Assembly (NCBI GenBank): GCA_027624675.1
Contig: JAQBTZ010000012.1
Location: 1-11,888 of the forward strand
DNA: 11,888 nucleotides
Source of the DNA: a bacterium
Lineage (GTDB): Bacteria; Patescibacteriota; WWE3; 2-01-FULL-39-13; JAQBTZ01
Direction of reading: 5' to 3'
Each line of letters opens with the position of its first letter. The first letter of the stretch is position 1. Positions 7,147 to 11,888 of the stretch are shown here, in pieces. The notes beneath the pieces were generated by a model that searched no databases, had not been told where the DNA came from, and worked only from the letters and a program-made list of their open reading frames with translations. The position numbers were made by a program, and so were the translations under genes.

Positions 7147-8617
7147 CTTTGAAAAATGGCAAGTAATTAGTATTATCTCTCGTTTTGGTGCTCAAATTAT
7201 AGGAACATTACAGTGGTATCTAGTCGCTTTAATTCTTCCCGCTCCAAGTTATGGTTTATATTCTATTGTTAGTGGAATTGCAAAGTCTTTTGGTTCTTAT
7301 CAAAACTTAGGTTTACAATCTACCTCCAATCGTGAAATTGCAGCAGCAAAAGACCTTGCACATGCATTTAAGGTGTTTTTTGTAGTAGCAACTTTTAGAT
7401 ATTTTATCTCTATCCCCTTGGCAATATTATTATTTGTTAAATCAACTGCAATATCTTCGCAGTTTGATTCAGATCATACTCGAATAGTTTTTGCACTTAA
7501 GGTTTATGCATTTATAATTTTATTTCAAGCTATACAAGGTATTTTTAATACTGTGTTAGCAGGTTTAAAAAAGTTTAAGATTTTGTTTAGTTATCAGTTT
7601 TTATTTACAATTATCTCATTTGTTATCTCAATTCCACTTGTCTATTTTTTTGATTTTGAAGGAACAATAATTTCTATCTTAATTACTACAATAATATCTG
7701 TTTTAATTCTAGGTTATTTTTCAATTAAAAGTTTTGAGGGGAATTTTGTTCTGCCAACTTTTGCAGAATATAAATTCATTTTAAAAGATATTCTTTCACT
7801 TTCTTTATCAGTTTATATTGTAAAAGTTATATTTAGTAACTGGGAAAATTTAGGAAAAGCAATTATTGGTACATCTTTTATCTTAGCTTTATTAGGAGAC
7901 AAAGCATCATTGCAGTTAGTAGGTGTTTTTGGTATAGCTCTTGCTTACTCAGCAAAATTAATGATGATTTCAGACTCAATAACAGATGTAAATATGACAA
8001 TTTTTACTGAAAAGTATTTAAATGACATTAAAAATTTTGCTTCAGATTTTTTAAGTAATTTTTCTAAAATTTTTATTACAACAACTTTTGTATCAATTTC
8101 AGTATTGTTTTGGAATAAAGAGGTGTTTGATTTTATATTTAGAAACAAATATGCAGGAGCAGAAAAATATGTGCCCGTATTAGTTATAGCGTATTGGGCT
8201 TATTCATTTATTAATATATATAAGTCAAGTATCTATGTACCAGCTAAACGATTGCTGTTGTTAGTAGTAGGGTTTTTGTTGCTTTTAATTACATCGATAG
8301 TTAGCTTTATATGGTTTAGGTTACTTAACATTTTTGATGTAACTTTATCGTTATCTGTTGCAATGATGATTGGTTCTTTAATAACTTATCTGTTTATGAC
8401 TTTTGATCTAAGGATTAAATTTAAGGTCTGGTTTATAAACACTCAGATGTTAATTACATTTAGCTTCTCTTTATTTATGTGTCTCATTTATTTCTATAAT
8501 TTACAGTTAAACTTTAAACTTTTGATGTTTGTGTTGTATTTCGCTATTCAGATGTATTTAATGTTAAAATGGAAAGTAATAAAAGTTCCAGCTAAGAAAT
8601 CGTCATCTCCGATTTAA
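7136..8617 (+). CDS. Polysaccharide/lipid-linked oligosaccharide flippase (Wzx/MVF-like)
   Basis: A 493-residue multi-pass protein of the MOP/MVF flippase type, expected to move undecaprenyl-linked glycan from the cytoplasmic to the outer leaflet. The N-terminus is typical: a basic/amphipathic lead (KNSFEKWQVISIISRFGAQ), a first helix, then a LPAPSYGLYSIVSGIAK stretch (residues about 33-49) and an STSNREIAAAKD loop, a pattern seen in Wzx-like proteins where arginine-rich loops sit between early helices. About 12-14 hydrophobic helices follow to the end. ATG 7136 overlaps the upstream stop by 11 bases; an in-frame TTG at 7118 is less likely. The last five residues (SSSPI) and the stop codon are read from a palindromic repeat, so the C-terminus was probably altered by that element. 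It lies between glycosyltransferase genes, which supports a glycan export role; the cargo is unknown. Confidence 0.86.
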   Translation: MKNSFEKWQVISIISRFGAQIIGTLQWYLVALILPAPSYGLYSIVSGIAKSFGSYQNLGLQSTSNREIAAAKDLAHAFKVFFVVATFRYFISIPLAILLFVKSTAISSQFDSDHTRIVFALKVYAFIILFQAIQGIFNTVLAGLKKFKILFSYQFLFTIISFVISIPLVYFFDFEGTIISILITTIISVLILGYFSIKSFEGNFVLPTFAEYKFILKDILSLSLSVYIVKVIFSNWENLGKAIIGTSFILALLGDKASLQLVGVFGIALAYSAKLMMISDSITDVNMTIFTEKYLNDIKNFASDFLSNFSKIFITTTFVSISVLFWNKEVFDFIFRNKYAGAEKYVPVLVIAYWAYSFINIYKSSIYVPAKRLLLLVVGFLLLLITSIVSFIWFRLLNIFDVTLSLSVAMMIGSLITYLFMTFDLRIKFKVWFINTQMLITFSFSLFMCLIYFYNLQLNFKLLMFVLYFAIQMYLMLKWKVIKVPAKKSSSPI

Positions 8618-8627
8618 TCGGAGATCC
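8601..8627 (+). repeat. Palindromic repeat copy C (CGTCAT-stem-ATCC), perfect 10-bp hairpin
   Basis: CGTC is followed by a perfect inverted repeat at 8605-8625 (arms ATCTCCGATT and AATCGGAGAT around a single central T), then CC. It has the same outline as two further copies downstream (GTC, 21- or 24-base stem-loop, CC) and the same orientation. The TAA stop of the flippase (8615-8617) lies in the middle of the palindrome, and the bases just after it give the AGGA motif of the next gene. Read one frame over it would encode VISDLIGDP, the kind of peptide left by dispersed bacterial palindromic repeats. There is no T run after the hairpin, so it is not a standard Rho-independent terminator. Repeat identity is from pattern, not a database match. 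Confidence 0.75.
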
Positions 8628-8631
8628 AGGA
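8628..8631 (+). promoter_or_regulatory. Shine-Dalgarno motif AGGA for the YbhN-like gene
   Basis: AGGA lies seven bases before the ATG at 8639 and is the only well-spaced Shine-Dalgarno-like motif among the junctions in this window. It directly abuts palindromic repeat copy C and may have been brought in with it. A GGAG (8620-8623) within the hairpin arm is too far away and would be hidden when the stem forms. Confidence 0.55.
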
Positions 8632-8638
8632 AAAACAT

Positions 8639-9514
8639 ATGAAAAAAACAATTATTAAAAGTCTTATAAGCATTTTACTTATTGGCTTTTTATTCACAAA
8701 AGTAGTTAGTTTTTCTGCAGTATTAAAAACGTTTTCACAGATCAACATCTGGTATTTTTTACTAGCTTTTGTAGCTATTTTAGGAAATAACTTTGTAAGC
8801 ACTACCAGATGGAAATATTTAATTGATCATTCGAAAGTTAAGTACTGGTATTTATTTAAGCTATATTTTATCGGTAACTATTTTAATAACTTTTTACCAT
8901 CAAGCATAGGTGGAGATGTTTATAAAATACTCAAACTTAAAAATATAATTGGTGATGGAGCAACAGCTACTGCTGCAACATTTATGGAAAGATTTACTGG
9001 TTTGTTAGCTTTAGCTGTAATGGCAAGCATAGCCTTAACTTTTACATCCTTTTTTCCAGCGTATTACGGTATATTACTTTTGATAATTTTTGTAGGAGGG
9101 TTTTTCTTTGGGCTGTTTATTCTTAATAAATTTCATAAAATGCACCCTAAACTTGAGAAATTTTATATTGTGTTTTTATCTTTTAAAGATAAAAAAGATA
9201 TAGTTATAAAAGCATTTTTACTCTCATTTTTAGTACAAATGTTTTCTGTTCTAACACAGTTAATGGTAGTAAAATCACTTGGGATAAATATATCAACAGT
9301 TTATGCTTTTTTTGCTTTTCCAATATCTGGGTTTATCTCATTTTTCCCAATAAGTTTTAATGGAGTGGGGGTGCAAGAGGCAATGTATATTAAGTTGTTA
9401 GGATTTGTGGGGATAAGTGCTTCACTTGCGGTTGCAGCTTCACTTACATATTTTATTATTAGGGTAGTTTCAAGTTTAATAGGGGCCGTGTTTTATTATT
9501 TTTATAATGACTAA
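8639..9514 (+). CDS. YbhN / lysylphosphatidylglycerol synthase TM-region family protein (UPF0104)
   Basis: A 291-residue membrane protein with about eight helices, of the family related to the N-terminal flippase part of MprF (PF03706 type). Signatures visible: RWKYLID (57-63), YFIGNYFNNFLPSSIGGDVYK (about 76-96, with the LPSSIGGD core at 86-93), TFMERFTGL (114-122) and FPISFNGVGVQEA (236-248), all in family order. It lacks a C-terminal aminoacyl-transferase domain, so it is not a full MprF. Such proteins often lie in glycan or lipid modification loci and are thought to help lipid flipping or export; the exact role is unproven. The gene starts at ATG with an AGGA motif seven bases upstream. 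Its TAA overlaps the next ATG by one base (TAATG). Compared with its neighbours nothing seems missing: length is normal for the stand-alone family. Confidence 0.88.
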   Translation: MKKTIIKSLISILLIGFLFTKVVSFSAVLKTFSQINIWYFLLAFVAILGNNFVSTTRWKYLIDHSKVKYWYLFKLYFIGNYFNNFLPSSIGGDVYKILKLKNIIGDGATATAATFMERFTGLLALAVMASIALTFTSFFPAYYGILLLIIFVGGFFFGLFILNKFHKMHPKLEKFYIVFLSFKDKKDIVIKAFLLSFLVQMFSVLTQLMVVKSLGINISTVYAFFAFPISGFISFFPISFNGVGVQEAMYIKLLGFVGISASLAVAASLTYFIIRVVSSLIGAVFYYFYND

Positions 9515-10395
9515 TGCTTAAATTCCCATACGTCATTCTGAGGCTACTGCCGAAGAATCCAGTATTCAGAAATCAATTAGTTAAATATCTTTTAATATCT
9601 GGCATAGTAAGCATTTTAGTTTTCTTTATAACTACCCCATATGCATTATTAGATTATCAAACTTTTTTCCGAAGTGATGTTAGTACAGGGGCATTTTGGC
9701 AATTTGAGAACATTGGGAAAAATCCTTTAAATCAATTAGTGCCAAATCTTTGGAGTACTTTAACACAAAGGATCCCACAAGTTGTAACCTACCCTGTTTG
9801 GATATTAAGTATACTTGGGTATTTATTAGCCATTTATTATAAGAAAACTAAGTTAATTTTGTTAGGTAGTTTTATGTTTGTTTATATTTTTTATACATCT
9901 ACGTTAACTAGGCAACCAACACATTATTTTTTACCAATTTTCACTTTATTAGTAATACTTGCAAGTAATTTTTTTAATCAAGTTTATAAGATAAAAGGAG
10001 CTAAGGTAATTCAAAATGCAATACTAATATTAGTTATATCTGTAAGTTTTTATAGTTCAATACAAGTTTCAAGAGCTTATGCAAGTATTGATACTCGTAA
10101 TTTAGCTACAGATTGGATAAGTGAAAATGTTGAAAAAGGTATAGTATTTTTTGATGGAGAATACAAACCGTTAATACTAGATAAGAAAGTTTTACTAAAA
10201 AGTCCAGATGGATTAATTACAGAAAGTGTAATACTTAATACAAGCCCAGATTACTTTATATGGACTAAATATATAGGCTCTCCAACACAAGAGAATTATT
10301 ATCATTCAATCTCTGATAAAATAGAAAAAGTGATATATTTTTCAAGAGAAGGAAATTTAGGTCCAGATATTTATATTTACAAAGTTATAAGATGA
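9514..10395 (+). CDS. GT39-like glycosyltransferase, C-terminal half only (N-terminally truncated)
   Basis: A 293-residue protein resembling only the second half of GT39 enzymes. After a 6-residue lead (MLKFPY) and a repeat-encoded segment VILRLLPKNP (7-16) comes a helix ending in TPYALLDYQTFF (41-52), then STLTRQPTHYFLPIFTLL (128-145) and the C-terminal DTRNLATDWISENV (193-206), all positions found in the second half of typical family members. The first outer loop with the catalytic acidic residues and the HPP-type motif is absent, and upstream DNA belongs to another intact gene, so the missing roughly 200-230 residues are not nearby. The frame is open, overlaps upstream as TAATG and downstream as ATGA, so it is probably translated. 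It is likely catalytically dead, a pseudogene-like remnant, or a subunit that pairs with another GT39 protein; the sequence cannot decide. Confidence 0.72.
   Translation: MLKFPYVILRLLPKNPVFRNQLVKYLLISGIVSILVFFITTPYALLDYQTFFRSDVSTGAFWQFENIGKNPLNQLVPNLWSTLTQRIPQVVTYPVWILSILGYLLAIYYKKTKLILLGSFMFVYIFYTSTLTRQPTHYFLPIFTLLVILASNFFNQVYKIKGAKVIQNAILILVISVSFYSSIQVSRAYASIDTRNLATDWISENVEKGIVFFDGEYKPLILDKKVLLKSPDGLITESVILNTSPDYFIWTKYIGSPTQENYYHSISDKIEKVIYFSREGNLGPDIYIYKVIR
9531..9560 (+). repeat. Palindromic repeat copy B, at the N-terminus of the truncated GT39 gene
   Basis: CGTC, a 24-base imperfect stem-loop (9535-9558) and CC. The stem pairs ATTCT with AGAAT, then has facing GA/GA (tandem G-A mismatch), then GGC with GCC around a TACT loop. 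It is in the same orientation as the other two copies. Read in the gene's frame it encodes VILRLLPKNP. It lies at the point where the GT39 homology begins, so it marks the truncation junction. Confidence 0.75.
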
Positions 10396-11888
10396 AAAAG
10401 TCATTATTTTTAAAAATTGATGGTCTAGTTATATTTTTGACATTTGTATTATTTCGGCTAAAAGATTTAGGTATAGACATTATTAACTCTGATGCGTTTT
10501 GGTGGAAAACTAGAACATATAATTTTGGTAACGCATTAAGTCAGCTTGATTTTGCAGGTACTGCTCAAACATATCACCCAGGGGTTACGTTACTTTGGAT
10601 AAACTATATTGCTGTTAAAATTTTCTCAGTTTTAAATAAATTTATATTCAATAACACATTATCAGAAAGGGATCTGTTTTTTATTAATCATATAATTCAA
10701 AAATCATTTTTGGTAGTTGTTTTAGGACTACTTGTAACATTAATTTATATTCAACTTAAAAAGCTTTTTGGAACAAGGTTTGCACTAATTTTCTTTGTAC
10801 TTTTAACTTTTACTCCATTTTTTGTTGCGTTAACAAGAGTATTACACACAGATGGAATATTGACCTTATCAATATTTTTATCGTTTATCTCACTTATGAG
10901 TTTTTATAAGACTGGTCAAAAGATTAACCTTATTTTTTCGGGATTTTGGTTAGGGTTAGCAGTTTTAACAAAAAGTAATTCATTAATTTTTATTCCATTA
11001 GTGTTATTTATTATTATTTTTGAGTATCTAATTAAATCCCCCCCCGTCATTCTGAGCTTGTCGAAGGATCCATCTAAACTCCTCAAACCAATATTATTAC
11101 TCTTCTCAACAGCGCTAGTAACCTTCATTGTTCTGTGGCCTGCAATGTGGGTAACACCCTTTCAAACCCTCTCAAAATATTTATTTGGAATAACAGAGGT
11201 GGGGGTTAGTACTGGTCATATACATTACTTTTTAGGAAAATTTACAGATAATCCAGGAATATTATATTATCCATTGTCTTTACTTGCCAGAGTTGATGAG
11301 ATACTAATTATATTGTTTTTGCTAGGGATTATTTGGTATATAAAGCACAAGTCAAAAGTTGAAAATAGATATATCTTTTACTCGTTAATCTTTATAATTT
11401 TTTATATTGTTATACTAAGTTTTCCTTCTAAAAAGCTAGATAGATATATTTTACCCACTTTCCCATTTATAGCCTTAGTTGCAACATATTTTGTTTCTTC
11501 AATTACTAAAAAATTACATATTAAATTAAGGCTAGTAATTCCAGTGTTACTTATAAATTTGTTAATAACAGATATGCATTTTCATCCAGACTATATGGCT
11601 TACTATTCTAATTTTGTTGGAGGGCCAGATAAAGGTAGACAATATATCGATCCAACGTGGCCAATAGGATATGCAAGTCTAACAAAATACTTTAATAATA
11701 TGGAAAATGCAGAAAATATATCTGTTGCAGTACATGATGAGTTTAGTTTTAGACCGTTTTTTGCCGGAAAAACTATAGATATTGAAAATGCGGATCAGGT
11801 GAAAAATGCGGATTTTATTGTAACCTATTCTTTTATGCCAGAAAAGATAGAGTTACCAAACTTTACTAAAAAAATTGTTTTTAAGGTT
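10392..11888 (+). CDS. GT39 family glycosyltransferase with in-frame repeat insertion, 3' end cut by window edge
   Basis: The frame is open from ATG 10392 (overlapping the upstream TGA as ATGA) to the last base, 499 codons with no stop, so the gene is 3'-partial but nearly full length. It is a GT-C glycosyltransferase: after a first helix, NSDAFWW (32-38) provides the putative catalytic aspartate, then YHPGVTLLW (61-69), LTRVLHTDG (147-155), LTKSNS (192-197), LWPAMWVTPFQT (248-259), LDRYILPTFP (349-358) and GPDKGRQYIDPTWPIG (411-426), followed by a soluble tail. Residues 219-227 (VILSLSKDP) are read from a palindromic repeat inserted in frame in a lysine-bearing cytoplasmic loop. From the LTK/LVK motif to the following LWP motif this protein is ten residues longer than the GT39 at 3801-5291 (55 against 45), matching such an insertion. 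A run of eight C precedes the repeat. Probably functional. Confidence 0.85.
   Translation, partial: MKKSLFLKIDGLVIFLTFVLFRLKDLGIDIINSDAFWWKTRTYNFGNALSQLDFAGTAQTYHPGVTLLWINYIAVKIFSVLNKFIFNNTLSERDLFFINHIIQKSFLVVVLGLLVTLIYIQLKKLFGTRFALIFFVLLTFTPFFVALTRVLHTDGILTLSIFLSFISLMSFYKTGQKINLIFSGFWLGLAVLTKSNSLIFIPLVLFIIIFEYLIKSPPVILSLSKDPSKLLKPILLLFSTALVTFIVLWPAMWVTPFQTLSKYLFGITEVGVSTGHIHYFLGKFTDNPGILYYPLSLLARVDEILIILFLLGIIWYIKHKSKVENRYIFYSLIFIIFYIVILSFPSKKLDRYILPTFPFIALVATYFVSSITKKLHIKLRLVIPVLLINLLITDMHFHPDYMAYYSNFVGGPDKGRQYIDPTWPIGYASLTKYFNNMENAENISVAVHDEFSFRPFFAGKTIDIENADQVKNADFIVTYSFMPEKIELPNFTKKIVFKV
11038..11045 (+). repeat. C8 homopolymer tract inside the GT39 gene
   Basis: Eight consecutive C in an otherwise AT-rich coding sequence, ending in the first base of palindromic repeat copy A. 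It encodes the end of a serine codon and two prolines. Such tracts can slip, and a gain or loss of one base would shift the frame near residue 217; whether it varies is not visible from one sequence. Confidence 0.8.
11045..11071 (+). repeat. Palindromic repeat copy A, in-frame within the GT39 gene
   Basis: CGTC, a 21-base stem-loop (11049-11069), then CC. The stem pairs ATTCT with AGGAT (one G-T wobble), followed by facing GA/GA and a loop closed by G-C (GCTTGTC). Same orientation as copies B and C. In the gene's frame it gives VILSLSKDP, and on the opposite strand SFDKLRMT. Both peptides are ones I associate with a common dispersed repeat of AT-rich, uncultured bacteria; this is recognition from memory, not a search. 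Confidence 0.8.

Follow-up and report, generated by a model that had tools for sequence, protein, structure and literature searches.

The 3' part of an 11,888-nucleotide stretch of DNA (the window; contig JAQBTZ010000012.1 of GenBank assembly GCA_027624675.1, from a WWE3 bacterium of the Patescibacteriota) carries three short palindromic elements, to which we assign a probability of about 0.8 of being members of the CGTC-tagged superfamily of repetitive extragenic palindromic (REP) sequences, that is, small non-autonomous palindromes with an NGTC tag, a stem starting with AT, a short loop and a CYA (CCA or CTA) tail, spreading by the mechanism proposed below. The host genome comprises 726 kb in 126 contigs (84% complete), and the window is its contig C7. 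All three copies are single rather than dimeric, carry a CGTC tag and end in a CCA tail (Table 1). Their positions as given in an initial annotation of the window (8601–8627, 9531–9560 and 11045–11071), as well as their common direction on the plus strand, agree with the sequence.

Recognition of the three copies comes from a covariance model, R2, built on an alignment (A7) of 18 gap-free copies, none of them from the window; its independence is incomplete, because some of these 18 were obtained via another model, R1, which included the window copies. In the window, R2 ranks copies 1, 3 and 2 as its top matches (E-values in Table 1), and the following match (E = 0.13) is copy 1 on the opposite strand, in accordance with the earlier observation, by eye, of no further copy in the first 8.6 kb. 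A pairing score of at least 7 is reached twice in the window, by copies 1 and 2, where 60 shuffles predict 0.1, and a score of at least 4.5 three times, where they predict 1.4, the third copy being weak. Single-strand DNA folding gives a clear result for copy 1 and a moderate one for copy 2 (z = −1.8). Copy 3, whose stem holds two mismatches, folds no better than its shuffles (z = 0.18), and the good hairpin once ascribed to it was not recovered; because of this, the case for copy 3 is made by its sequence and by the family. The bare outline, CGTCAT followed by 14–24 bases and ATCC, was dropped as evidence, since its 16 genome-wide matches, against 11 for the backwards control, are barely beyond chance. 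An Rfam search gave a single match, to a miRNA family, under its cut-off. The crowding of the three copies into the last 2.5 kb, within a sugar-transferase operon, turned out not to be special, as clusters of three within 2.5 kb occur on five contigs, and the probability of such a cluster somewhere in the genome under uniform placement is 0.24 (39 of the 41 R1 matches described next, the two weakest dropped).

Further copies are present throughout the host genome. R1 was built from 26 copies, 15 of them from the host (the three window copies included), and it gives 41 host matches at E ≤ 10, of which 30 have E ≤ 0.032. These 30 best copies, 14 of which belonged to the R1 training set, are tagged CGTC (20 copies), TGTC (7) or AGTC (3), and 27 have the CYA tail, tag and tail both being favoured by R1 itself. 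Loops of 3–6 nt and more are present among them. The stem sequence differs between nearly all copies of the genome, and some are perfect palindromes, e.g., ATTCCCG..CGGGAAT and ATTCTGAA..TTCAGAAT. A longer type, ATTCT-GA-GTC-TACT-GAC-GA-AGAAT, has a stem of 10 positions with G.A mismatches; eight of its nine listed copies contain two adjacent G.A mismatches, and the ninth contains one A.G. Copy 2 of the window is of this type. In DNA, tandem G.A pairs placed like these are expected to be stable; the folding tool gives them no credit. An inner length divisible by three, which the initial annotation saw kept in the three copies, is no general rule: some copies measure 20, 22 or 23, the last of these being an in-frame copy within gltX.

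The stems vary in a correlated manner. In alignment A4 (26 copies), 93.1% of the stem cells are paired, with 49 double changes versus 14.8 in shuffles, and in A7 98.6% are paired, with 34 double changes versus 9.0, figures that are biased because many of the aligned copies had been picked for pairing. The pattern CGTCATTCN{10,18}GAATCC fixes four pairs only and does not require the inner positions to pair; among its 22 rows, 73 of the 88 free inner positions are Watson–Crick and 15 rows pair at all four, and two rows that lack any inner pair look like chance matches.

With open reading frames (ORFs) counted from 90 aa, the 30 best copies fall into three groups: five lie in frame inside an ORF, two (copy 1 and a copy on contig C59) overlap the stop-codon end of an ORF, and 23 lie outside ORFs. 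This survey bears out the idea of a palindromic family that sits beside genes and, in frame, inside them. Copy 1 provides the stop codon of the 499-aa ORF upstream with the TAA in its loop (8615–8617), and copies 2 and 3 are read through in frame, both as first described. Ten of the 25 copies that are not enclosed by an ORF overlap the 3' end of one or lie within 60 bp of it. Two of the in-frame copies lie in the GT39-like genes of the window, and the other three in leuS on C52 (SHSESTAEES), gltX on C33 (RHSETEAKNL) and dnaX on C38 (SHPELVSGS), the genes being named by Pfam and NCBIfam, except for ORF 9514–10395, which has no family match and is placed in GT39 by its relative P0081 only. All five are in sense orientation; by eye the longer type is open in two of three sense frames and one of three antisense frames, and five of five is thus not remarkable. 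The survey also covered nine weaker R1 matches, the two weakest being left out: one on C2 overlaps the stop end of an ORF, one on C47 an ORF start, six are outside ORFs and one on C41 is inside an open-ended 130-aa ORF without support.

The leucyl-tRNA synthetase (LeuRS) offers a comparison with proteins that lack the element. Alignment to Thermus LeuRS (1h3n/2v0c) opens an 11-residue gap opposite the element, immediately ahead of FTTRPDT, and the relative P0088 is likewise 11 residues shorter there by our own count. After YYLRYPS, the host LeuRS is longer by another 21 residues, a second excess with CCTTCGACAGGCTCAGG in its DNA, which we read as a putative decayed antisense copy. A reverse-translation motif scan of 120 LeuRS proteins gave 3 matches, one being the host's own, versus 2 in shuffled and 2 in reversed controls, and there is thus no CGTC-type peptide signal in the other LeuRS proteins scanned. 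We note that, at the two positions of the host's element and second excess, the homolog P0086 has in-frame inserts of ~55 residues that share 76% identity, and that P0085 has a related insert at the second position. These look like another, longer in-frame element, of which there is no DNA copy among the loci examined.

In the GT39-like proteins, different elements appear to occupy the same residue. The 79 listed relatives of the copy-3 protein (its own included) were scanned for CGTC-type peptides, i.e., those for which some reverse translation gives the tag, a palindrome with an AT stem and ATCY. Nine of the 79 match, with 12 motif matches (some peptides are counted under both types); three residue-shuffled and three reversed controls of 79 each also match and look like chance. 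Four of the nine match at the copy-3 site with different peptides: VILSLSKDP in P0001 (the window protein), GHPEFISGS plus VILSLSKDP in P0002, VIPNLIGNP in P0003 and VIPDLIGNP in P0005. The other five match away from this site and look like chance. No motif peptide is found at the site in P0004 (75%) and P0006 (55%), and SHPKFILES of P0003 aligns near GHPEFISGS of P0002 but fails the strict motif. The copy-2 site reads VILSGAKNL in P0081 and VILRLLPKNP in the window (2 of 4 proteins match, with no match in the controls). Neither of the two refuting outcomes named at the outset was seen, a genome without other copies or homologs that all contain the same segments with normal conservation and no stem-loop. 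Homologs vary in the segments or lack them while their flanks are conserved.

These peptides suggest that elements have been exchanged at a fixed site. A further, tentative proposal, which we hold to be somewhat doubtful, is that in-frame elements act as reusable sites, a loop that has taken in one element receiving others of the CGTC kind time and again, via insertion at the resident copy or conversion from other copies. If this were true, the loop peptide would change abruptly, with no loss of frame or DNA hairpin, and ultra-small bacteria would have in their REPs a lasting supply of modular loop peptides that needs no linked RAYT (REP-associated tyrosine transposase). The GT39 sites make it possible to ask directly if one element takes the place of another at a given position in a protein.

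Copy 2 had been placed at a truncation junction. The gene is indeed truncated there: ORF 9514–10395 matches P0081 from about residue 217, the similarity starts at copy 2, and the upstream ORF ends 16 bases ahead of the copy-2 tag. Copy 2 as the cause of the truncation was set aside, since the full-length P0081 carries its element at the same place; for the same reason, an element probably stood at this site before the gene lost its 5' part. Recombination between two REPs is a plausible cause of the loss. There was no close GT39 homolog in the DNA loci searched (38% or lower at best, and 32–36% for ten loci of WWE3 or other Patescibacteria), and the best in the class genomes besides the window is 42%.

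Among relatives the elements are patchily distributed. In an R1 scan of 45 class genomes at E ≤ 5e-4, with stricter filters than the host-genome scan, ten genomes are positive, with 1–129 matches each among the matches listed: 129 in G014, 23 in G017, 19 in G012, 17 in the host, 14 in G044, six in G013 and one each in G001, G028, G032 and G037. Of 239 genomes of the phylum, five, the host among them, contain a match to an exact pattern written for the short G.A type. R2 has no match at E ≤ 0.05 in 67 named loci (977 kb), and the copy-3 pattern has none in the viral contigs searched. Close pairs (≤200 bp) in G014 mostly have their tags outward (33 of 37, with two inward and two in the same direction, among 116 places listed), and the host genome has at least four tags-outward pairs. 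The dimer units read in G014, G012 and the host have mostly unrelated flanks directly outside the tags. Of the initial description of a mobile or duplicating family, the family itself stands, genome-wide, and its mobility is argued from these copies in unrelated flanks. In G014, many places have one bit score, and those read are one identical sequence, which suggests a recent spread of elements in that genome. In G017, diverse short repeats, CGTC-like and otherwise, are packed into a dense array (locus L196, 1171–1916).

These features closely resemble the CGTC REPs (families CGTC-1 to CGTC-4) as described in the accessible part of Di Nocera et al. 2013 (PMC3733652), with a CGTC tag (TGTC and CCTC variants), an AT-starting stem of 8–9 bp, a loop of 4–5 nt and a CCA tail. 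There, dimers with tags outside (HH) predominate, copies lie near 3' ends and some within genes, tRNA synthetase and replication genes included, and a link to transposase genes is reported to be lacking. Tag, AT stem start, CYA tail, short loop, tags-outward dimers, 3'-end and intragenic copies and the lack of a linked transposase are alike here; the published stem and loop lengths hold for most of our copies, and in part for the longer type and copy 3. The five phyla listed in that part of the paper do not include Patescibacteria, to which our host's type belongs, and AGTC tags and longer stems with two G.A mismatches set some copies here apart, as do the sites in leuS, gltX, dnaX and GT39 genes, which are the host's own. 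In the same source, the Rickettsia palindromic elements RPE-6 and RPE-4 are identified with the CGTC-1 and CGTC-4 repeats, respectively, of R. conorii, so that the likeness to such elements first remarked on becomes one of family. RPE-4 and RPE-6 likewise insert in ORFs with the frame kept, as in five copies here; they occur in other bacteria and other genes, and the relation follows the published filing. The dRS3 repeats of Neisseria, mostly found in large clusters, are filed there under CGTC-1 and are likened to our elements by that filing only. GTAG REPs, REPINs and RAYTs also involve tagged hairpins in tags-outward pairs; unlike here, their tag is different and the RAYT is flanked by the same REP. 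The literature searched held no account of repetitive extragenic elements in the candidate phyla radiation or Patescibacteria, and the host group, the sites and the differing CGTC-type peptides at the same GT39 residue are apparently new.

We propose that the complete mobile units would be dimers, single copies being solo elements or remnants, and that their spread would proceed through single-stranded hairpins, with the tag as cutting site for an HUH-type nuclease that acts in trans and is not encoded beside the elements. Insertions would persist mostly between genes; inside genes they would do so only where the frame is kept and the loop is tolerant, adding ~9–11 residues. Such tolerant loops would be GT39 loops, the segment of LeuRS just ahead of FTTRPDT, the C-terminal half of GltX and the DnaX linker. 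At the GT39 sites, the occupied position would persist while the element there differs between homologs.

Several observations weigh against this reading. No mobiliser was identified and no movement was observed. Three of the six copies folded as DNA (copy 3 and those of leuS and gltX) do no better than their shuffles, and the stem G.A mismatches and the AGTC tag fall outside the published consensus as given in the accessible part of PMC3733652. Same-site variation is known at the protein level only. For gltX, insertion is unproven, as the Thermus alignment does not open a clear gap opposite the element; because of this, it is argued from the element itself. In G017, four near-identical 65-bp dimer units share their flanks and are part of a larger repeat.

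The alternative that survives best, against which we lean only mildly, is that the host copies are ancient remnants that have ceased to move in this genome, and that the differences between homologs come from compensatory point changes in an inherited element. It would fit the stem differences between nearly all host copies, where G014 has many identical ones, and the suggestion, in the accessible part of PMC3733652, that CGTC families are possibly going extinct. The GT39 peptides, however, are of different types and present in different numbers, which is more than a change of a few residues. The relic explanation is compatible with the classification as CGTC REPs and differs only in present activity.

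Mobilisation in trans by resident RAYT (Y1 transposase) genes, as is thought for GTAG REPs, is an unlikely variant. The host has five PF01797 (Y1 transposase) genes, REP-associated-transposase-like and under the NCBIfam cut-off, and by our own tally eight of the ten class genomes with R1 matches contain PF01797, versus 16 of the 35 others, an association that is weak and compatible with RAYT action in trans. A CGTC element also lies ~130 bp from the ORF of one host RAYT (locus L012). This is, however, the only one of 34 RAYT loci in the class with an AT-starting CGTC or TGTC palindrome in its flanks at a score of at least 7, a threshold that misses imperfect copies, and RAYT as a linked mobiliser was dropped on this count. 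Moreover, the flanks of each of three host RAYTs (L010, L012 and L013) have other repeats in common, 19–24 nt long, and two genomes with copies, G013 (83% complete) and G017 (81% complete), have no PF01797 match. Of the remaining host RAYTs, L011 has a shared repeat of 11 nt, and L009 none of 11 nt or more within 200 nt. A DUF559 nuclease was rejected as mobiliser, being present in 4 of 45 class genomes and in none of the ten R1-positive ones. Genes common to element neighbourhoods across genomes are only of families that look housekeeping by eye, e.g., ABC ATPases, ATP-grasp ligases, FtsZ and NUDIX, with no shared transposase.

It is very improbable that the elements have been retained for nothing but a role as transcription or mRNA signals (terminators or stabilisers): their frequent position near ORF 3' ends would agree with it, but five copies lie inside ORFs, and no T run follows copies 1–3 (sequence read; no terminator scan was run). 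Chance palindromes or ordinary conserved protein segments, which the near-chance outline count and the poor fold of copy 3 might suggest, are hardly credible given the R2 E-values and homologs that vary in or lack the segments between conserved flanks.

If the preferred classification as CGTC REPs holds, a superfamily reported in 2013 (PMC3733652) to be without a transposase and perhaps dying out is found in a small Patescibacteria-type genome, with in-frame sites that include the protein-synthesis genes leuS and gltX, as well as dnaX and surface-sugar genes. G014 (~0.8 Mb, 97% complete) combines its many matches, often alike, with mostly tags-outward pairs, and the small genome makes a search for the missing mobilising enzyme by gene content tractable.

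Table 1. Elements and genes in the 3' part of the window (E, E-value; z, fold as single-stranded DNA)
Feature	Position	Strand	Description	Evidence
CGTC element copy 1	8601–8629	+	Tag, 9-bp stem, 3-nt loop, CCA tail	R2 E 6.7e-7; z −4.4
CGTC element copy 2	9531–9562	+	Longer type, tandem G.A mismatches in stem; VILRLLPKNP in frame	R2 E 0.0014
CGTC element copy 3	11045–11073	+	Imperfect palindrome; VILSLSKDP in frame	R2 E 9.2e-6
ORF, 499 aa	7118–8617	+	Polytopic membrane protein by eye, flippase-like; stopped by copy 1	No Pfam/NCBIfam match
LPG_synthase_TM/flippase-like domain protein, 291 aa	8639–9514	+		Pfam PF03706 E 1.3e-40; TIGR00374
GT39-like protein, C-terminal part, 293 aa	9514–10395	+	Without N-terminal part; holds copy 2	P0081 (503 aa), 61%
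GT39/PMT_2-like glycosyltransferase, 499 aa	10392–11888	+	Open at contig end; holds copy 3	Family search

Some smaller features accompany the elements. The tail of copy 1 and the bases after it (8626–8641) read, by eye, CCAGGAAAAACATATG, and the tail may contribute to ribosome binding at the following gene, which starts at 8639. In that case, copy 1 would be in contact with both the stop of one gene and the start signal of its neighbour. The first base of the copy-3 tag is also the last of an eight-C run (11038–11045), and at L012 a C-rich stretch, ccccaccccc, lies ahead of a CGTCAT. At L012 (1240–2040), the RAYT gene stands between two direct copies of a 24-nt sequence that contains a palindrome, TTAACAATCAACCCCGCGGGTTGA, and the same contig has further GT39-like genes. 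The shared repeats flanking L010 and L013, 19 and 20 nt, respectively, are inverted, in the manner of terminal inverted repeats.

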